Of a stretch of 64,000 nt of DNA, positions 34,182 to 63,789 are shown in pieces. The stretch spans positions 1 through 64,000 of the forward strand of contig JAENZE010000002.1 of the NCBI GenBank assembly GCA_016841425.1, written 5' to 3'. The translations under genes and the position numbers were made by a program. Positions within the stretch are counted from its first letter, which is position 1. Each line of letters opens with the position of its first letter. The notes beneath the pieces were generated by a model. The model was not told the origin of the DNA, ran no database searches, and was given only the letters and a program-made list of their open reading frames with translations. This DNA comes from Syntrophomonas sp. GTDB lineage: Bacteria; Bacillota; Syntrophomonadia; Syntrophomonadales; Syntrophomonadaceae.

Positions 34182-34187
34182 TAGGTA

Positions 34188-34300
34188 ATAAGACCTAAAC
34201 AGAACGAGTCCAAAACGACAACAAATTTGTCCCAAATGGGCTATCAGATTTTTACGCCCATCAGCAAGTGTTAAAAGAGGTATTTTTATGCCTCTTTTTT
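34188..34300 (+). ncRNA. Leader/small RNA unit A, near-identical to 44506-44619
   Basis: A 113-nt segment is repeated almost exactly 10.3 kb away, with five isolated substitutions before the terminator loop. Three hairpins can be drawn: GACAA/TTGTC (about 34216-34230), ATGGGC/GCCCAT with a 14-nt loop holding most of the differences (about 34236-34261), and the terminal GAGGTA/TGCCTC stem followed by a T-run. In unit B the terminal stem is changed to GAGGTAT/ATACCTC, so pairing is kept while sequence varies. A promoter in front and a terminator behind mean it could be a free small RNA or a leader that controls read-through into the genes behind it. Confidence 0.65.
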
Positions 34301-34375: not shown

Positions 34376-34954
34376 GTGAAGATAGTATTAGCAACAACAT
34401 CAGAAGATATTGATAAATTTATACTGTCCAACTTAGGACAGGCAAAAATTATAGGGATAGGATCGAATCGGCGGCATCTGTTAAAAATTATAAAACGGGA
34501 CCCACCTGACATAGTGATTCTTTCAACTTTTTTGTCCGGAGAAGAAGATTTTAGTGAGATTATTTTTAAGATCATGGAATATGGGAATTGCCGGATAATC
34601 CTATTGGCAAAGGAAAAAGACAAAGTATTGCAGGATGCCTTCTTTTTAGGGGTGCGCGATTACCTTTTTGATCCGATTAATCCTAGTGCGCTTCTAAGTA
34701 GGATACATAATCCTATGTCATTCAAGGAAGCTGCAGCCGTAGTTAAGCCAGGAAAAAGAGGAATCCTCTTTAATAAAAAGATGGACTTGTTTTTTGCTAA
34801 ACATATTCCAGATGAATCTGTGGTGTCCCTTGAAGCTCAGGAGATGTTGCAGGGTATATTAAATTTTATTGAAGAAAAACCTCAAAGCACCCTGGAAGAT
34901 AATCTCTTCCTTATAGAACAAGCATTAATAGGATATTGCAAAACCGCCCAATAA
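34376..34954 (+). CDS. Pseudo-receiver protein 1
   Basis: GTG 34376 after AGGAGGGATG gives 192 residues. Residues 1-120 resemble a response-regulator receiver fold: alternating hydrophobic strands (MKIVLATTSEDI, DIVILSTFLSGEED, CRIILLAKEKDK) ending in YLFDPINPSALLSRI. The block DPINP and SGE(E/D)D are shared with the N-terminus of the 746-residue GGDEF protein at 45535, where the order is the same. The phosphorylatable Asp is not in the usual place, so it is probably an atypical receiver used for protein contacts. The remaining 70 residues are helical. Confidence 0.6.
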   Translation: MKIVLATTSEDIDKFILSNLGQAKIIGIGSNRRHLLKIIKRDPPDIVILSTFLSGEEDFSEIIFKIMEYGNCRIILLAKEKDKVLQDAFFLGVRDYLFDPINPSALLSRIHNPMSFKEAAAVVKPGKRGILFNKKMDLFFAKHIPDESVVSLEAQEMLQGILNFIEEKPQSTLEDNLFLIEQALIGYCKTAQ

Positions 34955-35934: not shown

Positions 35935-36393
35935 ATGACTGGAAAAACACATTTTATTGGAGGCATCCTGGCCGGGGTATTAATCACCCAGGCATTGGAT
36001 ATAAACATTGGGTATGCTGTTATCTCAGGATTGGGGGGATTATTACCGGATATAGATGAACCAAATTCAACTATAGGTAGAAGAATACCGGGTTCATTTA
36101 TAGTTAAATTCCTGTTTGGGCATAGGGGGTTTTGGCATTCCTTATTGGCAGCAGCTCTAGTCTATCTACTTATCTTAGGAGTGACATCCAGCACTTTTGC
36201 GGTGTTGTTTGTGGCAGGGTATATTTCGCATTTACTATTAGATGCCTGTACTCCTTCGGGAGTACCTTTTTTATACCCGATAAAACATAATTACTCGTTA
36301 AATTTAATTAAGACAGGGGGGGTAATTGAATACGCATTTTTGGTTTTTTTGTTGGCAGCAGTGTTTTTTACAACGGGAGGGATACAAACATGA
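35935..36393 (+). CDS. YdjM-type membrane-bound metal-dependent hydrolase
   Basis: This 152-residue protein follows AGGAGGCGGGG. It shows the family pattern: MTGKTHFIGGIL, GGLLPDIDEPNSTIGRR, GHRGFWHSL and GYISHLLLDACTPSGVPFLYP, with conserved His/Asp residues in and between four membrane spans. The family is linked to LexA-controlled YdjM in Escherichia coli and has an unproven hydrolase role. It overlaps the first pilin-like gene by 4 bp (ATGA), so it belongs to the secretion operon. Confidence 0.85.
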   Translation: MTGKTHFIGGILAGVLITQALDINIGYAVISGLGGLLPDIDEPNSTIGRRIPGSFIVKFLFGHRGFWHSLLAAALVYLLILGVTSSTFAVLFVAGYISHLLLDACTPSGVPFLYPIKHNYSLNLIKTGGVIEYAFLVFLLAAVFFTTGGIQT

Positions 36394-36728
36394 GGAATTT
36401 ATTTATTTTATTTGCATTACTAATACTATTTGTTTTAGTGCCAATACCAGCCCTGGCTGAATCTATGGAAACTATAGATATTGGCAGTGTGGCATCCGTG
36501 AACAGCGCGGAATTTATACAGAAGGTTTCCACCATGGCTTATGCCTTGTATGGGGTTGCTGTAAAAGTAATTGCCCCGCTCACAGTTATTATTTTGGTTA
36601 TTGGAGGAATAGCCGCTGTATTTTTTAAAGTAGCTAGGACAATAATTGTCTGGGCAATAATCGGCATGGTTTTGGTTTTCTGGTCACCAATGCTGGTGCA
36701 GTTGATCACGAACTGGGTAACAATGTGA
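36390..36728 (+). CDS. VirB2/TrbC-like pilin, first copy
   Basis: This 112-residue protein has a signal peptide (residues 1-23, ending PIPALAES), a short acidic stretch, then two long hydrophobic segments (about 48-75 and 80-108) separated by a short basic loop (FFKVARTI). This is the usual layout of VirB2/TrbC pilins. It is translationally coupled to the YdjM gene upstream and lies 16 bp before the second pilin-like gene. It probably forms the surface fibre or the membrane scaffold of the secretion system. Confidence 0.68.
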   Translation: MRNLFILFALLILFVLVPIPALAESMETIDIGSVASVNSAEFIQKVSTMAYALYGVAVKVIAPLTVIILVIGGIAAVFFKVARTIIVWAIIGMVLVFWSPMLVQLITNWVTM

Positions 36729-36744
36729 AGGAGGGAATTTTAAT

Positions 36745-37119
36745 TTGAAAAAAAATAAAATAGCAATTCTATTCCTGCTCATCGTATGTATGTTTGCAAT
36801 GCCAGTTATGGTTTATGCTGAGGACGATAGTGGTGATAATAAAAATGAAGTAGGTATGATTGATGTAGGCTCAGGATTAGGAGCAGTTGAGAAAGACGCA
36901 CTAGCCCAGAAGGTGCTCGATATTATAACCAATATAGGTTACTTTATTGGGGTAGTTGCAGTCGGTGCATTAGTTTACAACGCATTTAGGTTGGCGACTG
37001 GGGATGAAAAGAAACGTGCTGATGCCAAATCCCATATATTTTATACGTTAGGGGCAGTTGTATTAGTAGGGATGGCATTACTTATTGTTGGCTGGGTAGC
37101 CGGACTACTAGTAAACTAA
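36745..37119 (+). CDS. VirB2/TrbC-like pilin, second copy
   Basis: TTG 36745 after AAGGAGGG gives 124 residues. A signal peptide ends near AMPVMVYAED. Acidic residues follow, then two hydrophobic segments (about 60-80 and 95-122) with a charged loop, GDEKKRADAKSH. The order and loop charge resemble VirB2-type pilins. A strong terminator lies right behind it, so the two pilins can be made in excess over the downstream machinery. Confidence 0.68.
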   Translation: MKKNKIAILFLLIVCMFAMPVMVYAEDDSGDNKNEVGMIDVGSGLGAVEKDALAQKVLDIITNIGYFIGVVAVGALVYNAFRLATGDEKKRADAKSHIFYTLGAVVLVGMALLIVGWVAGLLVN

Positions 37120-37124
37120 GACGA

Positions 37125-37157
37125 AAAAGGCAGGTATTATCCTGCCTTTTCTATTTT
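37125..37157 (+). terminator. Operon-internal terminator after the pilin genes
   Basis: AAAAGGCAGG pairs perfectly with CCTGCCTTTT around TATTAT, followed by a T-rich run. It would reduce, not block, transcription into prgI and virB4. Confidence 0.85.
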
Positions 37158-37174
37158 TATAGGAGGTGTGGCCT

Positions 37175-37510
37175 TTGAAAGTATATCCAGTGCCATTTTC
37201 AACCAAAGAGGAAGATAAATTAATTTTTAATCTTTCTACTAAACAATCATTAATTATAGGTGCGAGTGTTATTCTTGCCCTAATTACTGCTGGTTTATTA
37301 ACAGCAATATTACAAACCCAGATGCTTTTTTGTCTGCCGATAGGACTGCCTGTTATTTTTGTAGGTGTAATATTGGCTATGAAGAAAATTGAGATATCAG
37401 GCTGTGAAATGACCACCGGGGATTACTTGTTTTATAGGTATAAATACAGCCAACGTAAACGCCACTATTTAACGCAAAGAGGGGAAGGAGAAACGAAATG
37501 GTATTTTTGA
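37175..37510 (+). CDS. PrgI/VirB3-like membrane protein
   Basis: TTG 37175, nine bases after AGGAGGTG, gives MKVYPVPFSTKEEDKLIF, the classical PrgI opening; the GTG at 37166 would add three residues and lies in the ribosome site. Two hydrophobic segments (about residues 24-46 and 48-68) are followed by a basic cytoplasmic tail. PrgI is the VirB3 counterpart in Gram-positive conjugation systems and partners the VirB4 ATPase. The gene overlaps the next by 13 bp. Confidence 0.85.
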   Translation: MKVYPVPFSTKEEDKLIFNLSTKQSLIIGASVILALITAGLLTAILQTQMLFCLPIGLPVIFVGVILAMKKIEISGCEMTTGDYLFYRYKYSQRKRHYLTQRGEGETKWYF

Positions 37511-38205
37511 TTGTATTGTTTACGGTTGTTATTTTGGGCTGTGCAGCTCTTTTGTTTTGGGAGAAGAACCGTAGTAAAAAAGAAAACCTGCAAAACGACA
37601 ATAAATTTAATGAGAGCACTACGGATATCGAGGAATTTTACCAGATAGACAATATTCGTGAGGGAATTATTTATAGAGACGATCAGTGTTATATAATGGC
37701 CCGTATCGGGGGACTGAATTTCACGGTTATGTCTTTAAATGAACAGCATAGCCGCGAAGATGCCTTGATTGGTATATTTGCTCGGCTTGACTACCCGATA
37801 AGATTTATCACTAATACAGTCATTGTCGATACTTCCGAAGAAGCAAGAAGAATTGCCGGAATAGCAAATCAAACGCCAGAAAGTACATTAAAAATATATC
37901 GTTATCAATATGCTGGTGCATTAGAACTTATGAGAGCGGAAAGGGCTGTGACCACACAATCTACATTCTTAATAATCCCAGGAAAAGACAAAGAGGAACT
38001 CCGGGATCGTTACCGGATACTTGCAGCTGCCCTTAAAGATCAAGGTCGAATGACGGTGGAATTAGTAGCAACTACCGAAGAAGTGACCGACATTATACAG
38101 GAAATATTAATGCCGGACTCCATTTTTAGGCCATCGGAAAAATTTCAATTTAACGTGGACAGCAATATTCATTTAAGCGAAAAGGAGGCCCTGGAGTATG
38201 CCTAA
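37498..38205 (+). CDS. Separate N-terminal part of a VirB4/TraC-type ATPase
   Basis: This 235-residue protein has one N-terminal membrane segment and a soluble domain (IREGIIYRDDQCYIMARI, then STFLIIPGKDKEELRDRY). It resembles the N-terminal, non-catalytic domain of VirB4/TraC proteins. The ATPase domain is encoded by the next gene, which overlaps it by 8 bp. In most Gram-positive systems both are one polypeptide or the first part is a small TraC-like protein. It probably anchors the ATPase to the membrane complex. Confidence 0.6.
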   Translation: MVFLIVLFTVVILGCAALLFWEKNRSKKENLQNDNKFNESTTDIEEFYQIDNIREGIIYRDDQCYIMARIGGLNFTVMSLNEQHSREDALIGIFARLDYPIRFITNTVIVDTSEEARRIAGIANQTPESTLKIYRYQYAGALELMRAERAVTTQSTFLIIPGKDKEELRDRYRILAAALKDQGRMTVELVATTEEVTDIIQEILMPDSIFRPSEKFQFNVDSNIHLSEKEALEYA

Positions 38206-39982
38206 TAACTCAAAGATTAAACAATTATTTATGGCCGACAGGATAACCGAGCGAGAAGATTATCTAGTTATTAATAATACATACTGTAGAACCCTGCACG
38301 TTGATATGTTGCCAGAACAAATCCAATTTGGTTGGTTTAACCGGATAGCATATATGAATGGAGTAACTATATCAGTAACCCTGCATCCGTACCGCCCGGA
38401 AGATGCGGCCAAAAAAGTGGACTCAGAACGAATTAAACTAGGAGCAGAGCTTATTGTTACCAGGAAGCAGGGCAATACCAGCAGGGTAGATGTGTTAGAG
38501 GTTAAAGAAAACTTTTACCGACACTTATTAAGGGAAATTAACCTTCATAATACAAATATTATGTCGGTGAGTGTAGTAATCAACGTAATAGCTGCCGATA
38601 TAGACAGCCTAAATAAAAAATGTGCCCAAATACAAGATTGGATGGGGGCTACAAAATTAACCCCATTATATCTCAGACAACTTGATGGTTTAAGGGCTTT
38701 ATTACCTGGGACTAAAATAAACACGGCTCATATAGATGTAACCGTTAGCAATGCAGCCTGTGTTGCCCCGCTAATCAATATGAATATATCCCACCCGCAG
38801 GGAGTATATTTTGGCGAAAATGCGTATAGCAGTTCGCCCTGTTTTGTAGATTTATTTGCAGGGCAACCGTTATTAAACGGTCCTCACGCCTTTGTAACTG
38901 GAATGACCAGGGTAGGTAAATCCTTTACCATGAAAGGTCTGTTTGCGCGTTCACTGGCGATAGGCAGGAAAATAGCAGTAATAGATCCCGAAGGGGAGTA
39001 CAAACAGCTTTGCATGGAGTTTGAGCAGGAGAGTGAATACGTCCGCTTGCACCCCTCAATGGAAGTTGTTTTCAACCCATTCGATATAGAGCCAGAGCAG
39101 GATGATGCAATGGGTGAATTTATTGACATAGCAGCAAAAGTTGATGATATAGCATTTTTGATCAGTGTAATGGTAACTACCCAAAGTGGGGAAAAACTAA
39201 CAGTTGAGGAAATGAGTAGTCTATCTACCCATATAAAAGCAGAATATGAAAAAAGGGAAATTAACGCATCGCCGGATAGTATATTTTACCATGAAAAGAA
39301 AGTGACTCCAGAAGGGATTATGGTAGGTCAATCCAAGAAAGAGATGCCCACCTTCACAAGCTTAACGGAATCATTTAAAGATGTTAACCCTCGGCTTTAC
39401 AATATACTTACCCAGTATTGTAAGGGTGGCCCATTAGGATTTTTTGACGGTCAAACCGCTATGGATTTAAAGTCAAAAAACTTAGTGGTGTTTGATCTGC
39501 TGGCTCTAAGGAATGACCATTCCAAGATGTTTGCTATGTATGTTTTACTGTCCTGGTTATGGGAGAATTACGTCAAGGCAGATCGAGCAACCCAGAAACA
39601 CTTAGGAGTGGATGAAGCATGGTTGATGATGACTCATCCATATACCGCAAAATTCATGAGCCAGATAGCACGGCGTGGTGCGAAGTATAATACTTCGTTG
39701 ATAGCCGCATCACAATCGTTTAGAGAGTTTACCACTGATGAAGGCATTGTATTTATGAATCAATGTGATTCAAAATTCTTTTTAAAAATGCAGACTTCAG
39801 ATGCCGAGGAATTAGGTAAAATATTCAACCTATCCCCCGAACTAGTGGCAATGATATCTACATTTACGCCCGGCCAAGGAATATTAAAATTAGGTCACGA
39901 GAGTGGAATAGTGCGATTTAAAGGATTTTCTTTTGAAGAACACTTTCTCCGTTCCGATCCAGGGGCGGTGCAGCTCCGATGA
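38198..39982 (+). CDS. VirB4/ConE-type conjugation ATPase
   Basis: This 594-residue protein contains Walker A in FVTGMTRVGKSFTMKG (about residues 232-247), then AVIDPEGEYKQL, and Walker B in HLGVDEAWLMM (about 468), followed by QIARRGAKYNTSLIAASQ, the standard VirB4 sequence. It powers assembly of the secretion channel and pilus. It is translationally coupled with its neighbours on both sides (8- and 4-bp overlaps). It is not the VirD4 coupling protein, which has different flanking motifs and membrane spans. Confidence 0.93.
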   Translation: MPNNSKIKQLFMADRITEREDYLVINNTYCRTLHVDMLPEQIQFGWFNRIAYMNGVTISVTLHPYRPEDAAKKVDSERIKLGAELIVTRKQGNTSRVDVLEVKENFYRHLLREINLHNTNIMSVSVVINVIAADIDSLNKKCAQIQDWMGATKLTPLYLRQLDGLRALLPGTKINTAHIDVTVSNAACVAPLINMNISHPQGVYFGENAYSSSPCFVDLFAGQPLLNGPHAFVTGMTRVGKSFTMKGLFARSLAIGRKIAVIDPEGEYKQLCMEFEQESEYVRLHPSMEVVFNPFDIEPEQDDAMGEFIDIAAKVDDIAFLISVMVTTQSGEKLTVEEMSSLSTHIKAEYEKREINASPDSIFYHEKKVTPEGIMVGQSKKEMPTFTSLTESFKDVNPRLYNILTQYCKGGPLGFFDGQTAMDLKSKNLVVFDLLALRNDHSKMFAMYVLLSWLWENYVKADRATQKHLGVDEAWLMMTHPYTAKFMSQIARRGAKYNTSLIAASQSFREFTTDEGIVFMNQCDSKFFLKMQTSDAEELGKIFNLSPELVAMISTFTPGQGILKLGHESGIVRFKGFSFEEHFLRSDPGAVQLR

Positions 39983-42438
39983 TAAAATACAAGCATTTTA
40001 TAATAACCCTATTATTGGTTTTATTTTTATGTCCTGCCCAGGTTATAGCGGTAGAAGATAATTTTGATGCTTCTGTAACCTGGACTGGGTCAAACATAAG
40101 TGTTCAGTACACGGGGTATGAGCCGGGATTTAGTGATATGTTGACAATGACTATCATGAATACTTCTTCTGGGGAAACATGGACGGCTAAAACGAGAGAT
40201 AAAACATTCAATAAGAAAGTTACCGATATTAATATACAAACAACTGGCAGCATTCCTCAACCGCAAGAAGGAGAAGTATGGACCATTATCTTTGATTATG
40301 GTGGTCAAAACCCATATACTACATCGGTTGATTGCTGGTTTCCTAATCAGGAAATAGATGATACCGGTAATCCTGTGCCAGTGGAAAATACCGCCAAAGA
40401 CAATATGGAGGGGAATTGGAAAAGCGGTGCTATGCCTATATTTCCTGGGGATAGCCAGAAGGTTGTAATGTTCTGGTATTACAGCCTAGCAACTCTCAGC
40501 GGGGCTTTTATGTTTCTGTTGTTTGTAAAATCTGGCTATCAGCACATATTCTCAACGACTAGCAACCCGGGAATGAGAGCATCTGTAATAATGACGGTAC
40601 AACGGGGTATTGTAGGTTTAATTATTATCATGCTTGCGCCATTTATCGTGAATATACTTATATCAATAAATGATACCTTCGTTGATTTATGCCGGCAATT
40701 GTTAGAAACAGCCGCACAGCCGGTAAATTTAGAAAACGTAGCATCATTAGAAAAAGCTAATGCTATAGAAAATATAATCTCCGGGGCTATTGATGGTATC
40801 AATAAAATAATATGTCATGTGCTGGGGCTAACACCCATAGGGGATTTAATATTCAACCAAACTCCAAATTGTACGATATTTAACTCTTTGCAGGGTGATT
40901 TTGTTAATACTAACAATGTATTTGCAGACGTTATTTTACATTTTGCTTTGTTAGCATATACCCTGTATTTTAACATCGTATATGTTGTCCGTAGATGGGT
41001 AGTAACAGTGGTATTAGCTGTTACACCGATAATAATATGGTCGTGGATCGTATCTGATAACAAACAAATAATCGGGTTGTGGGTTGCTGAGTTGGTGCAA
41101 ACAATTTTTATGCAAACCTTTCATGCACTCACATTCGGTATTGTGTTTAGTATTTTAGCTTTTTCTGGCGGTAACTTGGCCGCAGATTATATAAACGGGG
41201 TTACGATAAGTGCTCTATTAGTAGGGGTAGGGAAATACCTTGCCGCTTTCGGAGGCGTAGCCTGTGTAGCCATGCTGATTATACAAGCATACCGGATAAT
41301 TCTTAATAGCAACGAAAAAGAACGAGTTGACGCGATAGGTAAAATCAAAAGTGCGTTGGCTGGATTAGTAATATTAAGTTCATCCTATATGCTGGTATCA
41401 GCGATCTTCCCACATAAAATTGATATTTATCACCAGGGAGATATAGATGTCGGGAACACCGTTATATCTATAGGGGCTTACACACCAGAACCGACTGAAA
41501 TTACTGTATTTGTCCTCTTTTTTGCCTTGGTCGCAATTATTCCTATATCTAAGGCTCTTTCAATGATATTTATGAGTATTGTTGCACGTTTTGGTACCGT
41601 AGATGAAATGGGGATAGCCCAGGGTGGAATGCTTGCCCTTGGTCATAATGTGAGCAATGCGTTTAAAAAGAATAAGAGTAGCAGTGGGAGTATCCGAAGT
41701 AGTAGAAGTAACGAAAGTAGCGAGAATGGTGATAGTGTTGGAGATAGTAAACATTTAACTATAGGTGGCAATAACCAGACCAATGACGCATCGAGTGGTA
41801 ACAACCAAATTAGCAGCCTTGATAATGGTGGGGTAGAAAGGAATAATGTTGTTGGGATGGCAGCTGATGATAATTATTCAACAAGAAGTATTGCAGGAAA
41901 TCCTTATTTTGAGGATGATAATTCTTCAACAGGAAGTATTGCGGGAAATCCTTATTTTGAGGATGATAATTATGGGATGTATACCGCAGATACAAATAAC
42001 CAACTTCCTAATAATGAAACGAGTGATGAAGAATTAGGTTTACGTATAACTAATGATGTTCCTGCAACCCCTCATATAGACCAACTCAAGGCCAAAATAG
42101 ATACAGCAAAGGATGCAGCAAAATCATCTATAGATGAAGCAAAACCTTTCCTTAAAAAGACTCATGAAGTGGCTAAAACTGGTGGAAGAGCCGGTCAAGC
42201 CTTCGGTGATGCAATAGCACCAGGAATGGGTACTATAACAGGGATGGCAGGATATACGATGGCGGGAGCATCGACAATGATTGGAAAAGCGGGTATAGCA
42301 GGTATTCGCAAGGGAGCAAAAACCTTGGTGAATACTGAACAGGGACAAGCATTAAAAACTCATGCTACTTATGGACTTGAAAATACCCTAAGAGCAGCCC
42401 ACGAGTTAACTGCCAGAAGGCGCACTATGGATCAATAA
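39979..42438 (+). CDS. VirB6/TrbL-like polytopic channel protein
   Basis: This 819-residue protein starts in a 4-bp overlap with virB4. It has a signal peptide (to about residue 26), an extracellular beta-rich domain of about 130 residues (FDASVTWTGSNISVQYTG), then about seven membrane spans between residues 155 and 545. A long hydrophilic, Asn/Ser-rich C-terminal region follows, with two copies of a 16-residue repeat and an Ala-rich helix. This is the layout of VirB6-like proteins of Gram-positive systems, which form the inner channel. A terminator follows the stop. Confidence 0.8.
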   Translation: MIKYKHFIITLLLVLFLCPAQVIAVEDNFDASVTWTGSNISVQYTGYEPGFSDMLTMTIMNTSSGETWTAKTRDKTFNKKVTDINIQTTGSIPQPQEGEVWTIIFDYGGQNPYTTSVDCWFPNQEIDDTGNPVPVENTAKDNMEGNWKSGAMPIFPGDSQKVVMFWYYSLATLSGAFMFLLFVKSGYQHIFSTTSNPGMRASVIMTVQRGIVGLIIIMLAPFIVNILISINDTFVDLCRQLLETAAQPVNLENVASLEKANAIENIISGAIDGINKIICHVLGLTPIGDLIFNQTPNCTIFNSLQGDFVNTNNVFADVILHFALLAYTLYFNIVYVVRRWVVTVVLAVTPIIIWSWIVSDNKQIIGLWVAELVQTIFMQTFHALTFGIVFSILAFSGGNLAADYINGVTISALLVGVGKYLAAFGGVACVAMLIIQAYRIILNSNEKERVDAIGKIKSALAGLVILSSSYMLVSAIFPHKIDIYHQGDIDVGNTVISIGAYTPEPTEITVFVLFFALVAIIPISKALSMIFMSIVARFGTVDEMGIAQGGMLALGHNVSNAFKKNKSSSGSIRSSRSNESSENGDSVGDSKHLTIGGNNQTNDASSGNNQISSLDNGGVERNNVVGMAADDNYSTRSIAGNPYFEDDNSSTGSIAGNPYFEDDNYGMYTADTNNQLPNNETSDEELGLRITNDVPATPHIDQLKAKIDTAKDAAKSSIDEAKPFLKKTHEVAKTGGRAGQAFGDAIAPGMGTITGMAGYTMAGASTMIGKAGIAGIRKGAKTLVNTEQGQALKTHATYGLENTLRAAHELTARRRTMDQ
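41866..41971 (+). repeat. Tandem 48-bp coding repeat in the VirB6-like tail
   Basis: Two in-frame units (41866-41913 and 41914-41961) encode DDNYSTRSIAGNPYFE and DDNSSTGSIAGNPYFE, followed by a partial third unit. Only a few bases differ, so the duplication is recent and copy number may vary between strains. Confidence 0.9.
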
Positions 42439-42492: not shown

Positions 42493-44445
42493 ATGACCAA
42501 CAGCGATCAGATGGATAATAATATAGAACAACAAGGCAAGCAAATGGGTAATGTACTGGGAAAAAAACTTGGCAAAGCTGTTGCAAAACAAGCAAAGGCA
42601 AAATTACTGCCCCTTTTGTTAAAATTCTTTGCGGCCACTGCCCCCTTCTGGGTTATTTTAATTGCTGTGATTTTGGTTTTTGGAGCTGTGTATGCTACGT
42701 TCCCCGGAAACAAATTAACTTCCGGGCAAGAACAAGTATTTTTCTCTTTTAAGGATTCGGAAGAAAATAAAAAGGTCAAAGATTTATATATAGAAATAGC
42801 AGATAAAAATAATTTCCGCGATTCCTGGCTAGACACAGATTATATTACAACAAACACAGATGTGGTTTTTGAAGGCAAGCACGAAGGTGTCTACACAAAA
42901 GAAGAAATTATTAATTTACTGAATAACAGTACATATACTGGCACTCACGGGAAAGATACTGAGCGTGTTTTAAGTGATTATTACGGTATAGATAAATCCC
43001 ATAAAATTGACTTCGGCACCATTCATGCAGCTAATTACATTAAAGTATTAGTGCACGGAGAAGCTGAAACCACTAATGAATTTAAAGAACAAGTAGGAGA
43101 AGCATTCAGGCCCTATTTGTATTATAAGGAATCCACGCGGACTTATTGCAGTTTGCACGAAACTGAGAAAGGCTCAGAATGGGTATGTCACACTGAGAAC
43201 GTATATCTATTAACTGAAGCCAATACCATTAAAGGTCATTATAAATATGAATATGAATGGGTAGAAGAAAGCGGTGAAACATGGAACCGGTCTTATGAAG
43301 CCCTAAAATCAACCACCCTGGTCAACACTGAATGGGAACGTCTTGATCTATGGATTACCGAAATATTAGGAGAGCAAGGGAAACAATTAAGTTCAACCCG
43401 ACTTATGCTAATTGAGGCCGGGGTAGCATTTACTGAAGAACGAGAGAACGTAAAATGGCTTTTAGAAGGAATTTATTCTGACCATAACATATCTACGGGT
43501 ATAATAAATCCGGCTTTAATGCAATATTTTATGCAGGCAGAAAAAGCCTTCGGTTTTCCGTCATGGTTTTTGCAGGCAATAGCCTTTATTGAAAGTGGTC
43601 TTGATTCGGAAGCCTATAATAATAAAACGCAAGCCTATGGTTTGATGCAGTTATTGCCAGGAACCCAGAAAAGCACAGTGGATAAACTGGTAGACGAATA
43701 CCCTCATTTATTGTCCGAGGATTTTTTAATCCTATATCATAATACAACAAATAAAGATGCTGAATTTTATAAACAAGCAGTATCAAGCCCTAGTCTTAAT
43801 CTTATGGCAGGGTGTATGGATTTATTAAATAAAGGCTTAGATCCTTCTAGAATTGATTGGGAGGGTGATTGGCAAAACCAAACCCTCAAGGTTTTAGCAG
43901 GGTATGGCGGTCACGCATATGTGCCAAAGAAATTATGGTCTAAGTATGGAGTAACCGATGAAGCTGATTCTTATACAGAAGAAAAAGTGTTAGCCTGGGC
44001 TAAAGATAATTATGTGCAAAACATATGGGATAATGCTGAGAAATTCCAAATCGAAACATCCTGGCCATTTGAGGGCAGTTATCCTGTTACGGCTGAATTT
44101 AAACAAAAAGGCAGTCTTTGGACTTTGGGGTGGCACACTGGCATTGATTTTTCGATGGATGTAGGGACACCACTATCAGCTATGTTTAATGGTGAGGTGG
44201 TTGCAGCTGGATATCAAGCAGGGTACGGTAAAATATTGGTCGTTACCAATTACGTCTATGATGTGTGGTATGCCCACTTGGATAAAATCAATGTAACTAA
44301 TGGTCAGCAGGTAAATGCGGGGCAACTTGTCGCATATTCAGGTAATACTGGTAAAAGCACTGGGGCGCACCTGCATTTAGAAGTAAGGCCCCATGGAGGT
44401 GAATATGGCAACGTCCTAAATCCGCTATCAATTTGGTACAATTAA
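42493..44445 (+). CDS. Membrane-anchored lytic transglycosylase plus M23 peptidase
   Basis: This 650-residue protein follows TGAGGTGATTTA. A basic, amphipathic N-terminus leads to one membrane span (about residues 46-72). Residues 350-500 hold a lysozyme-like SLT domain with the catalytic Glu in FLQAIAFIESGLDSE and AYGLMQLLPGTQ. The C-terminal 115 residues are an M23 endopeptidase with GWHTGIDFSMDVGTPL and AHLHLEVRPHGG supplying the zinc ligands. It cuts both glycan and peptide bonds to open the wall for the secretion channel, like VirB1/CwlT proteins. The long region between is of unknown fold. Confidence 0.92.
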   Translation: MTNSDQMDNNIEQQGKQMGNVLGKKLGKAVAKQAKAKLLPLLLKFFAATAPFWVILIAVILVFGAVYATFPGNKLTSGQEQVFFSFKDSEENKKVKDLYIEIADKNNFRDSWLDTDYITTNTDVVFEGKHEGVYTKEEIINLLNNSTYTGTHGKDTERVLSDYYGIDKSHKIDFGTIHAANYIKVLVHGEAETTNEFKEQVGEAFRPYLYYKESTRTYCSLHETEKGSEWVCHTENVYLLTEANTIKGHYKYEYEWVEESGETWNRSYEALKSTTLVNTEWERLDLWITEILGEQGKQLSSTRLMLIEAGVAFTEERENVKWLLEGIYSDHNISTGIINPALMQYFMQAEKAFGFPSWFLQAIAFIESGLDSEAYNNKTQAYGLMQLLPGTQKSTVDKLVDEYPHLLSEDFLILYHNTTNKDAEFYKQAVSSPSLNLMAGCMDLLNKGLDPSRIDWEGDWQNQTLKVLAGYGGHAYVPKKLWSKYGVTDEADSYTEEKVLAWAKDNYVQNIWDNAEKFQIETSWPFEGSYPVTAEFKQKGSLWTLGWHTGIDFSMDVGTPLSAMFNGEVVAAGYQAGYGKILVVTNYVYDVWYAHLDKINVTNGQQVNAGQLVAYSGNTGKSTGAHLHLEVRPHGGEYGNVLNPLSIWYN

Positions 44446-44493: not shown

Positions 44494-44505
44494 TGTATAA
44501 GGGTT

Positions 44506-44619
44506 ATAAGACATAAACAGAACGAGTCCAAAACGACAACAAATTTGTCCCAAATGGGCTATCAGATTCTTGCGCCCATCAGTAAGTGTTGAAAGAGGTA
44601 TAAAAATACCTCTTTTTTT
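44506..44619 (+). ncRNA. Leader/small RNA unit B, near-identical to 34188-34300
   Basis: The second copy of the 113-nt unit. All three hairpins of unit A are kept: GACAA/TTGTC, ATGGGC/GCCCAT and the terminator GAGGTAT/ATACCTC with its T-run. Differences fall in loops and linkers or preserve pairing. It lies before the M48 protease and the GGDEF fusion gene. Its sequence identity outside the stems (for example AACAGAACGAGTCCAAAACG) is higher than expected for a simple terminator and implies selection on the RNA. Confidence 0.65.
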
Positions 44620-44640: not shown

Positions 44641-44654
44641 GGTACGCGCGTACC
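44641..44654. promoter_or_regulatory. Perfect 14-bp palindrome GGTACGCGCGTACC
   Basis: A GC-rich two-fold site between leader unit B's terminator and the ribosome site of the M48 gene. No T-run follows. A dimeric protein could bind here, or in RNA it could mask the ribosome site weakly. No function is shown. Confidence 0.4.
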
Positions 44655-44678
44655 AACAAATTGAAAGGGGATTTTTTA

Positions 44679-45563
44679 ATGAAACTTATATTAACTTTTA
44701 TTAATTTCATAGTTGTTTGTTTAACTTATTTGACAATACTCTACGCGTCAGTGGGCGTCCTTTTATCCATTATGGGGTATCCCATTGGGAATAATACATT
44801 AGTCTATGGTCTATTGGTTATTGCGGTAATTGTGTTTATTATAAGTATTGGTTTGCTGAAGATTGGAATTGTCAAAGACCAGTATATTAGAGACAACCGA
44901 TTAATGAGAATAGAGTCTGATGAATTGGATAAGGTTTTAAGCGATATATGCAGCCAACTAAAGATAGATAAACCCACTGTGTATTATGATAATAGCCAGG
45001 AAATAAACGCATCCGTGGTAAGTAAAGACATGTTGATTTTAAATAAGGGGTTTGTTGAATTTGCCACAAAATATGAAATATTCGCTGTAACAGCTCATGA
45101 AGCAGGCCATTTAAAACACGGAGATAGCCGATATTTTGAATACAATTATATTCTAAGAACTATGGCATCTGGAATACTTGGATTCACGGAAGGATTGGTT
45201 TTCGGGAAAACAGAGGAGCAGCGGGATATGCCAGTATTGCTTATGGTATTGCTTTTTCCTTTAATGTTTTATCTACTTATCCTACGGCTTGCTTGGTTTG
45301 TCACAAGCAACCTAACTTTCTTAATAGACAGAATTTCATCTCCATATAAAGAGTACAGAGCAGACCGTTATTGCGTAGAACTCGGATTTGGGGATCATTT
45401 GATTACATTCGCAAATAAACTAATGGAAAAATTTCCGGAAGAACGTAAAGAACGCCGATTTTTTTCCACACATCCTACCTGGAAACAGAGAATCGAAGCG
45501 ATTAGAAAACTGCAGGAAAAGGAGGTCTTAAATTGTGGCAATCTTGCTTGCAACCGGAATTAA
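44679..45563 (+). CDS. M48-family membrane metalloprotease (HtpX-like)
   Basis: ATG 44679 follows GAAAGGGGATT and gives 294 residues; an earlier TTG overlaps the ribosome site. Two N-terminal membrane spans are followed by the M48 catalytic motif TAHEAGHLKHGD (zinc ligands His and His, catalytic Glu), a hydrophobic pair around residues 185-215, and the third ligand region YKEYRADRYCVELG. It ends THPTWKQRIEAIRKLQEK, typical of HtpX. It may process or degrade membrane proteins during channel assembly. It overlaps the next gene by 29 bp. Confidence 0.9.
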   Translation: MKLILTFINFIVVCLTYLTILYASVGVLLSIMGYPIGNNTLVYGLLVIAVIVFIISIGLLKIGIVKDQYIRDNRLMRIESDELDKVLSDICSQLKIDKPTVYYDNSQEINASVVSKDMLILNKGFVEFATKYEIFAVTAHEAGHLKHGDSRYFEYNYILRTMASGILGFTEGLVFGKTEEQRDMPVLLMVLLFPLMFYLLILRLAWFVTSNLTFLIDRISSPYKEYRADRYCVELGFGDHLITFANKLMEKFPEERKERRFFSTHPTWKQRIEAIRKLQEKEVLNCGNLACNRN

Positions 45564-47775
45564 AGAGATAGACCAAGAATTAAATCAATATGAAGGTTTT
45601 TATAACTGCTATAACCGATATGTCGTTATGGATATGGTTGAAACAATAAAACCCAATGTAGTTGTGGTTTCCCCATATCTAAGCGGGGAAGATGATCTTG
45701 TAAGTAGCGTGATCGAGCCATTGAGGAATGAAAATATACGGGTTATTTTTTTACCGGGTAATCCGAAATACAACGATGCCCGGAACTGGATGCGACAGCT
45801 TATTGGTTGGGGAATTTACGATTACGTTTATGATCCCATAAACCCTGAAAAAGTAATAGAAAGAATAGAAAATCCCGGCAAACTTAAAGATTTGCCCCAG
45901 GACATAGTAAATGAATCATCAAAAAATGATGTAGCCAGTTTTATAGATATGCTGCCCGAAGATGAAGATGAAGAAAATTTAGAGAAGGCTTTTCAGAACC
46001 CATTACAAAGATTAAAACCTAAACCCAAAAAGAAGGAAAAGCCCAAAGAATTACCCCAGCAAGCCAGTAACCTTCCAGTGATAGTAAAAGAACCAAAACG
46101 GGTAAAGAGCAAACCGAAGCCTAAAATCAATTTCGGGGGGCTGTTTGTAAAAACCGGATATATTAAAGATGGAGAATTTCATAAATTTAAAGCCGCCACG
46201 CTAGAAGAATTATTAGAAGCCGATACTGATCTGGATGCGGTAGTCGTACCTAAGTCTTGGGATATCAACGATATCAAGAAATATCGTAGAGATAGGCGAA
46301 GCAAAACAGTGATGCTGGTAGTCTTAAAAGGGAATAAAGAACATCTTTCCTGTGGTGCGGATTACTGCATCAAAAAAATAACCCCGCAGATTAAGCGGGA
46401 GATTAGTCTATTGAGTAAAAAGACGAAAAATCTCTGGCGCAGGGTGGATACAGATTCTCTTACCGGGTTGTATTCCCGGGCATTCTTTAATGAATGGCTG
46501 ATCGAGCAGAATTTCCGTAAAATGCCTTACAGTCTGGTTATGTTGGATATAGACCACTTCAAACGAGTGAATGATAATTACGGCCACGATAGTGGGGATG
46601 CCGTTTTAGCAGCTTTTGGTGATTTTCTTAAATCCAATATCCGAACTGTAAAAGGTGCCGATTTAGCCTTTAGGTACGGAGGGGAAGAATTTACCCTGGT
46701 GCTTCCTTACACAACTTCCACTCAAGCCTATATAGTAGTGGATAGGATAAGGGAAGAATGGTCAAAGCGCATAATAACCTTGTCAGATGGCCGGACAATA
46801 ACAACCACATTCTCTGCTGGGGTTGCAGAATGGCAGGAGGGTTGCGATATATGTAAAGAAGCTGATGTTATGCTATATAAAGCCAAGGGAGCCGGAAGAA
46901 ATCAAGTTAAGAGTGAACCGGCAAGGCAACGGGTACTAGTGTTGGGTAAGATACCAGCAGCCGAATTAAAGGAACATGGTTTTGATACCACCTATGATCC
47001 TCAACTGGCAACATCAGTAATATGCGATAAAGACAGCTTAGATTATGCCCCACAAGGACTTCCATTGTATGTTATCGGGACCGGGCAGTTATCGGACTGG
47101 ACAATCAAGAAGCAACGGGAAGATGCTGTAATATGTATGTCGGTAGTCGAGATAGTCGAAAAACTTAAACCAAAAACCAATTTGCAGGTATTACCCGGGG
47201 TAAGAACCAATGAGAAAAGCCATACCATTCCAAAAAACGGCACGTTGTATGTAGTGTGTCCGTCAAGACCGGCAGCAGCCGGGGAAGTAGCTGTAAGACT
47301 GGTAAACTCGATAAATAATTCAGCTTTGGTATGTGCATCATCGGAAAGCACAGCAGCTTTAACAATAGGCATACCAGAGCATCAGCTTATCACATCAGAT
47401 TGGCGAATCTTAAAAGCCGATGCACCGGTTAAGTGGGCAGGGGTGTATGTGTGGCCGATAGACCCATATAAACACATATCGTCACATCACGATACTCAGG
47501 CACTTGTTGATCAGATCAAGGATAAATTCTCTATTGTTGTGGTTGATTGCGGAGCCAGTTTGGATATATGTTCACGCATATCACCCAATGAGGGAGTTCT
47601 CCTGTTATATAAAGAAGGGGACGCATCCGATGTAGCAACCAAGCACTGGCATAAGGTACATGGAGGGCAGAACGTATTAGCGATGTCGCCTAATGAAGTG
47701 CCGACAATAATTGAAGCGGAGAATGGTTTTGTTATCTCATACCAGTGTAACAATGTCATTAGAAGTGTAAGATAA
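45535..47775 (+). CDS. Pseudo-receiver/GGDEF/MinD-like fusion protein
   Basis: GTG 45535 after AAAGGAGG gives 746 residues. Residues 1-125 match pseudo-receiver 1 (PYLSGEDDLV, YVYDPINPEKVIERI). A basic, Pro/Lys-rich linker and a second receiver-like segment (about 200-290) follow. A GGDEF domain then spans about 300-460 with the metal Asp in VMLDIDHFKRVNDNYGHD and an intact RYGGEEF. The inhibitory site reads KGAD instead of RxxD. The C-terminal 280 residues resemble MinD/CpaE/TadZ ATPases (KFSIVVVDCGASLD), but the P-loop position reads CPSRPAAAGE without Lys. It is probably an active diguanylate cyclase tied to a localisation domain. Confidence 0.78.
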   Translation: MAILLATGIKEIDQELNQYEGFYNCYNRYVVMDMVETIKPNVVVVSPYLSGEDDLVSSVIEPLRNENIRVIFLPGNPKYNDARNWMRQLIGWGIYDYVYDPINPEKVIERIENPGKLKDLPQDIVNESSKNDVASFIDMLPEDEDEENLEKAFQNPLQRLKPKPKKKEKPKELPQQASNLPVIVKEPKRVKSKPKPKINFGGLFVKTGYIKDGEFHKFKAATLEELLEADTDLDAVVVPKSWDINDIKKYRRDRRSKTVMLVVLKGNKEHLSCGADYCIKKITPQIKREISLLSKKTKNLWRRVDTDSLTGLYSRAFFNEWLIEQNFRKMPYSLVMLDIDHFKRVNDNYGHDSGDAVLAAFGDFLKSNIRTVKGADLAFRYGGEEFTLVLPYTTSTQAYIVVDRIREEWSKRIITLSDGRTITTTFSAGVAEWQEGCDICKEADVMLYKAKGAGRNQVKSEPARQRVLVLGKIPAAELKEHGFDTTYDPQLATSVICDKDSLDYAPQGLPLYVIGTGQLSDWTIKKQREDAVICMSVVEIVEKLKPKTNLQVLPGVRTNEKSHTIPKNGTLYVVCPSRPAAAGEVAVRLVNSINNSALVCASSESTAALTIGIPEHQLITSDWRILKADAPVKWAGVYVWPIDPYKHISSHHDTQALVDQIKDKFSIVVVDCGASLDICSRISPNEGVLLLYKEGDASDVATKHWHKVHGGQNVLAMSPNEVPTIIEAENGFVISYQCNNVIRSVR

Positions 47776-47864: not shown

Positions 47865-48782
47865 GTGATTACCTATGTATCTGGGAATATTTTTGAGAGT
47901 CCTGCCAGAGTGTTGGTTAATCCTGTTAATACAGTTGGAGTCATGGGTAAAGGTTTGGCCAAAGAATTTAAGACAATATATCCTGAAATGTTCAAAGAAT
48001 ATCAACATTATTGTGAAACGGGCTTACTAGATATTGGTAGATTGTGGATATATAAAACGGATCACAAGTGGATATTGAATTTTCCAACAAAAAAGAACTG
48101 GAGAAGTCCCTCAAAACATGAATATATTGAAGCTGGTCTTAAAAAATTCATCTCCACATATGCACAAAAAGGAATAACTTCAATTTCTTTTCCGCTGCTG
48201 GGGTGTGGGAATGGAGAATTAGATTGGGAAACGGATGTTCATCCTTTGATGAAAAAGTATTTAAACAAGCTACCTATTGACATTTATATTCATTTGTTAA
48301 ATTCGAAAGCAATAAAGGCCGAGCACAAAAACATAGAGGAAATTAAACTATGGCTTAGAAGTGAACCGCAGTCACTAGCGTTTAGTGAAGTTTGGGAAGA
48401 CCTCACTGAATTATTGGATAAACACGAAATGTTTGTAACTCTTGATACAAAAGAAGAGTTCCGTGCTTATATAACCAATTGTACTCTTCATGTTATACAT
48501 GGTAAGGGAATATATAAGATATCTAAGGAAGAATTATGGGGATTATGGCAACATATGCGTAGCATGGGGTATTGCATCAAAAGTAGTATGCCATATGGAT
48601 TGGAAAGATATTCATCTTATATTTTTAGCGTTTTTAGCGAACTACCGTATATTAGTTCAATTTATATTACATCAAATTATAACGAGATTAACAAAGCCCC
48701 ATCGCTAGGTTTGCAGTATAAGGCGCCGATTAATTCCCTGGGTAATCTGTTTACTCCTATTGAAGTGTTTGAGGTTATTTAA
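47865..48782 (+). CDS. darG: DarG-like macrodomain antitoxin
   Basis: GTG 47865 after AAAGGGGTGAT gives 305 residues. Residues 1-150 are a macrodomain: ITYVSGNIFESPARVLVNPV, then TVGVMGKGLAKEFK, NFPTKKNWRSPSKHEYIEAGL and the loop FPLLGCGNGELDWE. DarG macrodomains remove the ADP-ribose that DarT places on thymidine bases in DNA. The C-terminal 150 residues have no recognised fold, but the equivalent part of DarG binds the toxin. It precedes the toxin by 2 bp; in the well-known operons the toxin comes first. Confidence 0.87.
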   Translation: MITYVSGNIFESPARVLVNPVNTVGVMGKGLAKEFKTIYPEMFKEYQHYCETGLLDIGRLWIYKTDHKWILNFPTKKNWRSPSKHEYIEAGLKKFISTYAQKGITSISFPLLGCGNGELDWETDVHPLMKKYLNKLPIDIYIHLLNSKAIKAEHKNIEEIKLWLRSEPQSLAFSEVWEDLTELLDKHEMFVTLDTKEEFRAYITNCTLHVIHGKGIYKISKEELWGLWQHMRSMGYCIKSSMPYGLERYSSYIFSVFSELPYISSIYITSNYNEINKAPSLGLQYKAPINSLGNLFTPIEVFEVI

Positions 48783-48784
48783 TC

Positions 48785-49786
48785 ATGAAAGGTGAGTATA
48801 AAAAGGATAAACAGCAAATCGTAGAGTTTTTAAATAGTCTATATAATGCTGATTGGCTACCTTCATCACAAAAATGGTGGCCAAAATATATTTATCATTT
48901 CTCAAATATTGATAATGCAGTTCAGATATTAGAAGATGGATGTTTATATAGTAGATATTATCTCGCTAATAATCAGAGAATGATTACTGATAATGCCAGC
49001 TCGGAAGTCATAAGTCATACAGATAAACAGTGGCAAAAATATGTGCGATTATATTTTAGGCCAAAAACGCCTACGCAATGTCGTAACGAAGGATTTAGGC
49101 CTGTTAATCAGAGGTATGATAATGCACATTGTCCAGTTCCAGTATTTTTTTTGTTTGATGCAAAAAAGGTGCTTACCAAAGCTAATGTTCAGTATTCTGA
49201 TGGAAATTTAGCATCTAGCAGAACAAGGGTTTACGAAACAGCTGATGATTTGGAACAAATTCCATTCAAAGAGGTTTATCATGACAGTTGGTTTAGTCCA
49301 GAATATCGGGATCGGATTATACATCATCGTCATGCAGAAGTATTAATACCGGAGTGCCTTTCACTCGAAGATTTACGAACTGTGATATGTAGGACTGAAG
49401 CCGAATACGAAACATTACTTGATTTATTATCTGTCCCGGCATTCAATAAATGGTATGAAAAAATTGGTGCTAGCAAAAAGGGTAATTTGTTTTATAGAGA
49501 CTGGCTTTTTATTGAAGAGGTAGATCTGAATGAATCATACGTGAATATAGCATTTAATGATTCGAACTACAATTACGATCCGTTTAATATTATTATCACA
49601 GTTAAGGATAATGAAGTAGACAAGATCTATACTTGGAGAAAAGAGGAATACACAATTCCGGTTAATAAAACATTAAAACTTAAATTACCTTCCAAAATAA
49701 CGAATCCGGCGAACTATCAGTTAAAAATATATTTTGATAAACAGCTAATGTACTCTAATATATATTATACTGATATACCATTCTAG
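48785..49786 (+). CDS. darT: DarT-like DNA ADP-ribosyltransferase toxin with C-terminal extension
   Basis: This 333-residue protein has a DUF4433/DarT core in residues 35-220: IYHFSNIDNAVQILEDG, VRLYFRPKTPTQCRNEG, VPVFFLFDAKKVL and the catalytic-region glutamate in HHRHAEVLIPE. DarT toxins use NAD to modify thymidine in single-stranded DNA and can act as anti-phage abortive systems. The core usually makes up the whole protein of about 210 residues. Here about 110 further residues form a beta-rich domain (YNYDPFNIIITVKDNEVD, LKLKLPSKITNPANYQLK), which is unusual and might bind a target or partner. Confidence 0.87.
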   Translation: MKGEYKKDKQQIVEFLNSLYNADWLPSSQKWWPKYIYHFSNIDNAVQILEDGCLYSRYYLANNQRMITDNASSEVISHTDKQWQKYVRLYFRPKTPTQCRNEGFRPVNQRYDNAHCPVPVFFLFDAKKVLTKANVQYSDGNLASSRTRVYETADDLEQIPFKEVYHDSWFSPEYRDRIIHHRHAEVLIPECLSLEDLRTVICRTEAEYETLLDLLSVPAFNKWYEKIGASKKGNLFYRDWLFIEEVDLNESYVNIAFNDSNYNYDPFNIIITVKDNEVDKIYTWRKEEYTIPVNKTLKLKLPSKITNPANYQLKIYFDKQLMYSNIYYTDIPF

Positions 49787-49832
49787 TTTCTAAAGTAAAT
49801 GCTTTATATCTAAGCACAGGAGGAATATTATT

Positions 49833-50156
49833 GTGTCGGTTGAATATTTCGTGCGAAAGAATACTCAATTAGCAAAGCCTGGCAAAGTAATAGAAGCAGA
49901 GATTTCGGGAACCAAAATCAGGATTTTGCTTACACCATTGCAGGGTATTTCCGAAATAATGAGCATCATGATGGAAGATTATTATACGCTTGTAACCCTA
50001 TTAGATTATCCATTTACCTCATACCCTTTTGATCTACCTTTGGCAGAGTATGTTGGAAGTGATTATATATTAGAGAAATTGTATTCATCTGATCAAAAGT
50101 ATGCCGAAAATGCCGAAAAACTCTGCTATCTATTGAAGAAAAACGCTGTCATTTAA
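49833..50156 (+). CDS. Hypothetical protein downstream of DarTG
   Basis: GTG 49833 after CAGGAGGAATA gives 107 residues. It is a small soluble protein with a beta-rich start (FVRKNTQLAKPGKVIEAEIS) and a helical end. No motif is recognised. It follows darT by 46 bp and precedes a terminator, so it could be a third gene of the toxin-antitoxin transcript. Confidence 0.6.
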   Translation: MSVEYFVRKNTQLAKPGKVIEAEISGTKIRILLTPLQGISEIMSIMMEDYYTLVTLLDYPFTSYPFDLPLAEYVGSDYILEKLYSSDQKYAENAEKLCYLLKKNAVI

Positions 50157-50194
50157 TAATGGCAGGTGGTCGAAAACAGAATTGATAATGTCTT

Positions 50195-50220
50195 GCCCTC
50201 TGTTAAGGAGGGCTTTATTA
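50195..50220 (+). terminator. Terminator of the DarTG transcript
   Basis: GCCCTC pairs with GAGGGC around TGTTAAG, followed by TTTATTATT. The next 255 bp to the SEC-C gene hold no coding sequence and presumably its promoter. Confidence 0.75.
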
Positions 50221-50475
50221 TTGCCTTAATTTATCCAACATTGCAGGGTATGCCTCTTTGAGCCACCCGGATTTTTATCATAATTGTTGTATTATGTAAA
50301 AAATACTATTATATACAAGGAAAACATTTACATTGTGCAGAAGTAATGAGTAAATGTAGTCATTATGTCTATTAGAGGAAGTTGAATAATATCCAATTGA
50401 AAACTAAAATACGTAACGAAGATAAATAGCCTGAAGACGGTATGTCTAGTTACTTCTGGAGGTTAGTAAGCCCTT

Positions 50476-51447: not shown

Positions 51448-51568
51448 AATTATTACAAAGCAAGGGCTCGAATTCACATTATCTATATACCTATTAGAAT
51501 AAGACGCAGTTCGGGCAAGCAGTAATTATAGCAATAATGGGTAGTCTGTTGTTCAGGAGGTACTAATA

Positions 51569-55493: not shown

Positions 55494-55504
55494 GTTCAAA
55501 TTTA

Positions 55505-55532
55505 ACACGAGGGGACGAAACACGAGGGGACG
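55505..55532. repeat. Short tandem REP-like repeat
   Basis: ACACGAGGGGACG occurs twice in tandem (55505-55517 and 55520-55532), followed by TTTTTGTTGTGT, which can pair with ACAC. Similar cacgaggggacg elements are scattered as REP-like sequences in clostridial genomes. No associated transposase is in the window. Confidence 0.45.
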
Positions 55533-55705
55533 TTTTTGTTGTGTCATTATATTCAATAATGACAGGGACGGGGTTGTCATCATCATAGAAGAACTCTCCA
55601 TAATTGCTATTTAGAACCGCCGCTAAGGCTAATAATGCGCATTTATACGACAATGAGTTATATAAATTATGTAAATTTAATAAATAAAATAACGAGGTAA
55701 ATTAT

Positions 55706-56845: not shown

Positions 56846-57095
56846 AAAAGATAATTAGAGCCTAAACCAACGTGTTAACGACTAAGGGTGATAATGAAAA
56901 CTAAACAAACTAATTATAAAAGAATCCCAAATATTATTTTGAATTTCCTCTAATCCATAAAAACAAGACAAGTTATCCTGGGTAAACTGGAACATAAATT
57001 AGGGAATACAATCCATGTAATTTCCTCAACTTCACAGGAAGATGCCTTGGGATTTAGGGCTTTTGAGACAAATCTCATTTAAGGAAGCGGATAAA

Positions 57096-59250: not shown

Positions 59251-59432
59251 AAAGAGATTATTGCCGCCTATGATTCCCAAGTAACCGGCGGAGACATACC
59301 CGGATGGGCTTAAAGAGTTGATGGTTAGAATAGTTTATTATCCACTATTTAACGGTAAGATGAACCGTACCATATGTAATCATTTGATTTTACTTCCGAT
59401 TATCCATATTTTTTTCAAGGAGGGATAGAAAT

Positions 59433-62955: not shown

Positions 62956-63789
62956 ATGAACGATAGAAAGTCTAAATTTTTAACCCTTATGTTATTGCTG
63001 AATTTCGTACTGGTGCTGCCGGGCATTTCAATAGCTACTCCCGACGTAACCGTGAAGATTGATGGGACAGCAGTAGCATTCCCCGACCAGAAGCCGTATA
63101 TCGACAGCAATAACCGTACTCTGGTACCTATGAGGGCACCGATGGAAGCCCTGGGGGCTACCGTTGATTGGGATAACGCTACAAGACAGGCAATCTTTGA
63201 GAAAGACGGAACCACCGTAGTATTCACTATCGGCAGTAGAAGCTACACCATTAACGGAGTAAACAAGACTATGGACACCCAGGCGGTAATCACCGGAGAT
63301 AGAACTTGTATCCCGATCCGGTACGCAGCTGAAGCGATAGGCGCAACTGTAGGTTGGGATGGGACTACCAGAACTGTACAGATTTCGACCAAGGCCAGTG
63401 TGGTAGGTAATACTCTGAGTGCCGAGAAGGTAGCCGAATTAAAGGCCATACCGTATGATAAGACTCCCGATGCAGAAATGGGAGATCCCAAGATAACTAC
63501 CTCATTAAATTGTTCCGATACCTATCAGGGTTTAATTGACCATATGGTACTGAAGCCTAACCAGAAATTCATCACCAGTAGGGAACTGCTGTACATGAGT
63601 AGCGGATCACCGGGTGGAACAGGTAATTTCCGTCTAAGAGGGGTTGTTCAGGAAACTAATGCCGATGGGAGTATTACCGAATATGATGCTGTAGCCAGTG
63701 CTTTTTACGGAGGAAGCTCAATGTATGATGGAATAGTATGGCATGAGGTAGCAGTCATTGAACTAGGGACCTGGAAAGTGCTTAACTAA
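62956..63789 (+). CDS. Secreted copper-amine-oxidase N-domain protein
   Basis: This 277-residue protein follows CAAGGAGGGAATT. A signal peptide (residues 1-30) is followed by a copper-amine-oxidase N-terminal-like domain: VTVKIDGTAVAFPDQKPYID, RTLVPMRAPMEALGATVDWD, GSRSYTINGVNKTM and PIRYAAEAIGATVGWDG. The domain is a common extracellular module in clostridia and has no oxidase activity itself. The C-terminal 120 residues are a separate unknown domain. Codon use is more GC-rich than in the neighbouring defence genes, which hints at a return to host-type sequence. Confidence 0.88.
   Translation: MNDRKSKFLTLMLLLNFVLVLPGISIATPDVTVKIDGTAVAFPDQKPYIDSNNRTLVPMRAPMEALGATVDWDNATRQAIFEKDGTTVVFTIGSRSYTINGVNKTMDTQAVITGDRTCIPIRYAAEAIGATVGWDGTTRTVQISTKASVVGNTLSAEKVAELKAIPYDKTPDAEMGDPKITTSLNCSDTYQGLIDHMVLKPNQKFITSRELLYMSSGSPGGTGNFRLRGVVQETNADGSITEYDAVASAFYGGSSMYDGIVWHEVAVIELGTWKVLN

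Follow-up and report, generated by a model that had tools for sequence, protein, structure and literature searches.

A predicted diguanylate cyclase domain fused to a TadZ-like unit, encoded between T4SS and Tad genes of an ICE-like element in Syntrophomonas

The 64,000-nucleotide stretch of Syntrophomonas sp. DNA analysed here as a whole (the window) encodes a 746-residue protein in which a GGDEF domain is joined to a TadZ-like C-terminal unit. Its domain make-up, catalytic motifs and gene position, together with a co-encoded HD-GYP enzyme and a shared leader, support a model in which a TadZ-like scaffold without the canonical nucleotide-binding loop carries a diguanylate cyclase (DGC) and would place c-di-GMP synthesis at the T4SS/Tad apparatus of an ICE-like element; we put the probability of this reading at about 0.5. 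We favour a DGC sited at the transfer apparatus because the C-terminal unit resembles TadZ and the gene keeps a conserved place between the T4SS and Tad modules. Enzyme activity, docking, localisation, any influence on transfer and what the leader does are inferred. The coordinates of all features are collected in Table 1.

Table 1. Features of the fusion gene and of the surrounding element, in the window and on contig C3 beyond it
Feature	Position	Strand	Remark
Leader copy 1	34184..34300	+	Before the REC-like gene heading the T4SS block
Stand-alone REC-like protein, paralogue of pseudo-receiver 1	34376..34954	+	Heads T4SS block
Small T4SS genes: TrbC-like (weak), T4SS pilin, PrgI	36390..37510	+	
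VirB4 in two ORFs	37498..39982	+	N-terminal part 37498-38205, ATPase 38198-39982
Long membrane protein, T4SS_pilin match	39979..42438	+	VirB6-like by position, from gene order
CwlT-like cell-wall hydrolase (SLT + M23)	42493..44445	+	Upstream of the fusion gene in relatives
Leader copy 2	44502..44618	+	Before M48-DGC pair; ends in strong intrinsic terminator
M48 peptidase	44661..45563	+	Overlaps fusion gene; probably co-transcribed
REC*-REC*-GGDEF-TadZ-like fusion protein	45535..47775	+	746 aa, GTG start
Pseudo-receiver 1	45535..45888	+	Residues 1-118; Ser at expected phospho-Asp
Pseudo-receiver 2	46126..46434	+	Residues ~198-300
GGDEF domain	46447..46905	+	Residues 305-457; GGEEF intact, I-site KGAD
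TadZ-type atypical receiver	46924..47169	+	Residues 464-545
Degenerate TadZ/MinD-like domain	47215..47772	+	Residues ~561-746; MinD homology weak
CPSRPAAAGE replacing KGGxGKT of TadZ/MinD	47257-47286	+	Sequence comparison
Cu_amine_oxidN1 secreted protein	62956..63789	+	Opens Tad side; Tad genes continue beyond window
Two Tad clusters	C3 ~62.9 to ~83.6 kb		Two TadA, two platform sets, prepilin peptidase, CpaB, TadE/G
Leader copy 3, 84-nt part	C3:76092-76175		Before true tadZ, outside window
HD-GYP gene, free-standing	C3:89605-90192		Motifs HDIGK, HHHEH, GTGYP; beside Tad cluster
Actin-like ALP gene	C3:90217-91206		
VirD4-like T4CP	C3:95074-96888		
Serine recombinase	C3:101329-102840		

Domain make-up of the fusion protein

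The GTG start of the fusion ORF is preceded by an AGGAGGT ribosome-binding site and is backed by the N-terminal sequence of the homologue in genome G056; the ORF overlaps the M48 peptidase gene by 29 bp. Two pseudo-receivers are followed by the GGDEF domain, a TadZ-type receiver and finally a TadZ/MinD-like domain whose P-loop is replaced. GGDEF was the sole strong Pfam match of the protein (E 6e-36), and the best NCBIfam match, to the PleD family, lay over the GGDEF part and fell below the cut-off. With profiles made from the relatives, pseudo-receiver 1 matched CheY (E 1e-7) and showed an invariant Ser at the strand end where the phospho-Asp is expected, and pseudo-receiver 2 matched PhoB (E 1e-5). 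The ORF is real, and the original prediction of a GGDEF domain fused to pseudo-receivers is borne out. Structure prediction of the full protein from two sequences gave a pLDDT of 30. Like the PleD-type cyclases (REC-REC-GGDEF), the window protein has two receiver-like domains ahead of GGDEF; it differs from them in that these are pseudo-receivers and in its TadZ-like tail, and its relatives can swap the front receiver for a MinD-like domain.

In the window copy, the GGEEF, LDIDHFK, NDNYGH and ADVMLYKAKGAGRN motifs of the GGDEF domain are all intact and the metal- and guanine-binding residues are present, so that the predicted intactness of GGEEF is confirmed and extends to the other catalytic motifs. 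Solved DGCs matched the domain at 1e-27. The domain might still serve as a GTP or c-di-GMP sensor, or as a spacer in the scaffold, with no working cyclase; the three relatives without GGDEF would fit this, as would the two receivers, both of which are pseudo-receivers and therefore offer no phosphorylation input. Against it stand the intact motifs, the retention of GGEEF in all seven GGDEF-bearing family members and a GGDEF-domain dN/dS of about 0.1, at a dS near saturation, and we consider a GGDEF domain without cyclase activity improbable. The RxxD inhibitory site, also predicted to be altered, does read KGAD in the window copy, but RxxD is kept in 6/6 of the other GGDEF members. We therefore rejected the altered I-site as a trait of the system; judged from these members, the loss of the feedback site is peculiar to the window copy. 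About a dozen other GGDEF genes were found in the host genome, a point against the scaffold model.

The C-terminal unit begins with residues 464-545, which aligned with the N-terminal receiver of true TadZ over 76 columns (hhalign probability 98%); this assignment would make the protein a fusion of GGDEF to a whole TadZ-like unit. There is no GKT or GKS in the C-terminal part of the protein. CPSRPAAAGEV occupies the P-loop position and is conserved in the relatives, where the family form is CPSRPAxAGE; on these alignments, the family as a whole has lost the P-loop lysine. Residues ~561-746 matched MinD over the switch-II/Walker-B stretch with an hhalign probability of 16% (E 0.0016), and a PDB search with this last domain returned MinD only at E 0.2-0.35. 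The order behind a TadZ receiver and these weak profile and PDB matches make MinD ancestry of the last domain likely. Of the predicted MinD/TadZ core without a Walker A lysine, the lysine loss holds, but the homology to MinD is weak.

In the published model, CpaE/TadZ, which combines a deviant Walker A with an atypical receiver, encircles the Tad motor as a ring whose dimers touch through their receivers (PMC13170226); TadZ, which shows little ATPase activity, acts as a hub at the cell pole (PMC6668835). The window protein shares with them the succession of an atypical receiver and a degenerate P-loop-type domain, and Tad genes nearby. It differs by the lack of GKT/GKS, so that a deviant Walker A of the TadZ/CpaE kind was not found, and by the pseudo-receivers and GGDEF that precede this unit. 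A true TadZ whose P-loop is intact (KGGVGKT) is encoded separately in the element.

Relatives across Bacillota

Whole-genome searches with the C-terminal unit covered a class sample of 63 genomes and a phylum sample of 398 genomes. The unit was found in 7/63 genomes of the class sample, in two of them only via the receivers of ordinary TadZs, and in 10/398 genomes of the phylum sample. Seven family members bear GGDEF (the window copy and those of G056, G014, G043, G230, G278 and G158, the G278 member being cut by a contig end), and three intact members are without it (G388, G368 and G191). The member in G301 is interrupted, and Syntrophomonas sp. BM5_bin.8 (G020) has a C-terminal remnant. In plasmids, tblastn with the fusion protein gave matches at the GGDEF level only, and scans of viral contigs gave neither a relative nor a copy of the leader described below.

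The front modules differ among the relatives, which carry one pseudo-receiver, a longer extension or a MinD-like domain. The front extension in G043 matches a separate gene of the window (35312-35872); the MinD-like front domain has a P-loop in G014 and G191 and a variant P-loop in G158, the most distant member, whose last domain holds another P-loop remnant. The family thus keeps its TadZ-like tail constant and exchanges the modules ahead of it, among which GGDEF is common but not obligatory. Since GGDEF is absent from three intact relatives, the family can fulfil its core role without c-di-GMP synthesis, which speaks against the scaffold model. Across the domains, the degenerate one included, dN/dS was 0.07-0.25 for pairs with unsaturated dS, values that are imprecise where dS exceeds 1, as it does in several pairs, and that for the window/G020 pair involve a remnant.

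The ICE-like element and its shared leader

VirB4 and VirD4 of the element resemble the CD1110 and CD1115 ICE families, respectively, both below cut-off. The usual ICE features of VirB4 plus a T4CP and an integrase/recombinase are present, and from ~112.9 kb contig C3 seemingly carries, by eye, shikimate-pathway and other housekeeping genes. Searches for MOBP, Rep_trans, Mob_Pre and Replic_Relax relaxases found none: PF03432 and PF02486 gave no match, and PF13814 and PF01076 gave none either, though the controls for these last two matched nowhere. As these searches turned up no relaxase, the element is only presumed to be mobile, and ICE-like is a fair term for what appears to be one element holding both the T4SS and the Tad genes. 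Its T4SS proteins match, below cut-off, those of the transfer modules of Tn1549/CTn-type and Mycoplasma ICEs (CD1110 VirB4, CD1115 VirD4, PrgI, CwlT), from which the element differs by a VirB4 in two ORFs, duplicated Tad-pilus clusters and the c-di-GMP module. The two ORFs of this apparently split VirB4 (37498-39982) cover consecutive portions of a single ICE VirB4 model.

In the window's genome (G000), G014 and G158, the fusion gene has VirB4/CwlT-type genes on one side and Tad genes on the other, with T4SS genes, fusion gene and Tad cluster in close succession in G014; in G230, G368, G388, G278, G191, G056 and G043 one or both flanks are visible, depending on contig ends. Wherever contigs reach, the T4SS-Tad placing is consistent, and the linkage of homologues to virB4 raised by the original prediction was found in the form of an adjoining VirB4-type T4SS module. 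G056 and G230 also have an M48 homologue close to their fusion gene. Such a position can be read in another way, namely that the fusion protein serves the Tad pilus in adhesion alone while the neighbouring T4SS is independent of c-di-GMP. The C-terminal unit does resemble TadZ and no T4SS protein, and Tad genes stand close downstream in G014 and G158; however, CwlT-type T4SS genes are directly upstream of the fusion gene in several relatives, and a leader copy also precedes the T4SS gene block of the window. We hold a role confined to the Tad pilus to be unlikely. Tad pilus genes start near 62.9 kb, mostly beyond the window, and a HD-GYP gene beside the Tad cluster occurs in G014 as well. The Tad pilus, the HD-GYP gene, the shared leader and the relatives were no part of the original prediction. 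Inside the Tad cluster, a HEARO RNA (RF02033, 143 bits; C3:69104-69327, L024:5104-5327) is followed by a 417-aa ORF, probably an IscB-type insertion. By eye, the matching element in G158 has at G158:C1:~1094254-1095652 (L058) a gene of the EAL type (c-di-GMP phosphodiesterase) that is broken up by masked bases.

In the window's genome a 15-kb defence-rich insert parts the fusion gene from the Tad side. It carries DarG-DarT, GajA-GajB (Gabija), a SIR2-type gene and a DUF4238 gene (47865-62723). Elsewhere in the window, 10430-22916 holds a Druantia type I-like set (DruB, DruC, DruD, DruE and a PD-(D/E)XK nuclease gene on the + strand, DruA on the - strand). Two paralogous genes lie far apart (5482-6192 and 60083-60796; 53% identical), the first with a sub-threshold NERD match.

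Leader copies 1 and 2 form a 117-nt intergenic repeat (91% identity), and copy 3 is an 84-nt part of it (83%); the whole genome has these three only. A core of 45 nt is nearly invariant, and each copy is then followed by its own terminator-like hairpin, whose sequence changes from copy to copy while the T-run at its end is retained. For copy 2, the hairpin is much more stable than shuffled sequences (z -5.5). Among the 398 phylum genomes, one further copy was found, in G020, where it is not beside a receiver or TadZ gene, and comparison with Rfam gave only weak hits far below gathering scores. Most simply, the repeat would be transcribed as a leader whose conditional termination co-regulates the three units, but it may instead be a DNA operator or a small RNA. 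The strong terminator hairpin at ~44591-44617 stands between the T4SS genes and the M48-DGC pair. The fusion gene, predicted to lie inside a conjugation operon, does adjoin the T4SS block, but this terminator sets the M48-DGC pair apart as what is probably its own transcription unit at the downstream edge of the block. A perfect 14-bp palindrome, GGTACGCGCGTACC (44641-44654), separates leader copy 2 from the M48 gene; it is unique in the window and a possible operator; promoter-like matches in the region were at chance expectation.

A possible c-di-GMP circuit at the transfer apparatus

DgcK and DgcL of the SXT/R391 ICEs are DGCs reported as cargo that acts on biofilm and motility (PMC10672970). 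Coupling of c-di-GMP to transfer in Gram-negative ICEs had been claimed in the original prediction; the DGCs exist, but what the source reports concerns biofilm and motility and not transfer itself. The window protein is likewise a predicted DGC on an element of the conjugative kind, but belongs to another phylum, and PMC10672970 describes no fusion of DgcK or DgcL to an apparatus protein. By the same pattern, the window cyclase could act globally, with a rise in cellular c-di-GMP turning the element's host sessile or adhesive and the TadZ-like part merely tethering the enzyme: DGCs of SXT/R391 ICEs and of genomic islands alter biofilm and motility (PMC10672970), and the altered I-site of the window copy perhaps relaxes feedback. 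However, the T4SS-Tad placing is kept across genera and families, cargo sits in the separate insert (47.8-62.7 kb), and the HD-GYP gene and shared leader tie the fusion gene to the apparatus, and a global action seems to us somewhat unlikely.

In the preferred reading, of a TadZ-like scaffold that carries a DGC, the C-terminal receiver, together with the degenerate ATPase, would attach to the Tad motor, to the true TadZ or to the adjoining T4SS base through contacts between receivers of the kind modelled in CpaE rings. The receivers would pair the GGDEF domains, c-di-GMP would be made at the apparatus and removed by the element's own HD-GYP enzyme, and its local level would switch the assembly of the pilus or the mating channel. 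The main gap of the scaffold model is the c-di-GMP effector: no PilZ gene was found in the element as a linked receptor, and no Rfam c-di-GMP riboswitch in 102 kb (the window plus 38 kb beyond).

A literature search that took in few subscription journals found no paper on a GGDEF-TadZ fusion, T4SS/Tad ICEs or the shared leader, and no such domain order; the original prediction knew of no Firmicute example. Mobile-element DGCs as cargo and the atypical Walker A in TadZ are known; none of the papers searched describes their fusion, the fixed T4SS-Tad placing or the shared leader. More speculatively, and fairly unlikely as a whole, a Bacillota ICE lineage might assemble a hybrid T4SS/Tad mating apparatus under a private c-di-GMP circuit made up of the TadZ-fused cyclase, the HD-GYP enzyme and, within this genus, a novel leader RNA. 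This RNA would gate the units for T4SS, DGC and Tad jointly and might itself read c-di-GMP. If the scaffold model is true, a mobile element would make, at a single machine of its own, a second messenger that the host normally controls. Local c-di-GMP signalling would then be hard-wired by a gene fusion in a case open to testing, and a TadZ-like protein without a P-loop would gain a role. Conjugation and the Tad pilus would be linked in Bacillota, with a possible answer to how such ICEs gather cells before transfer.
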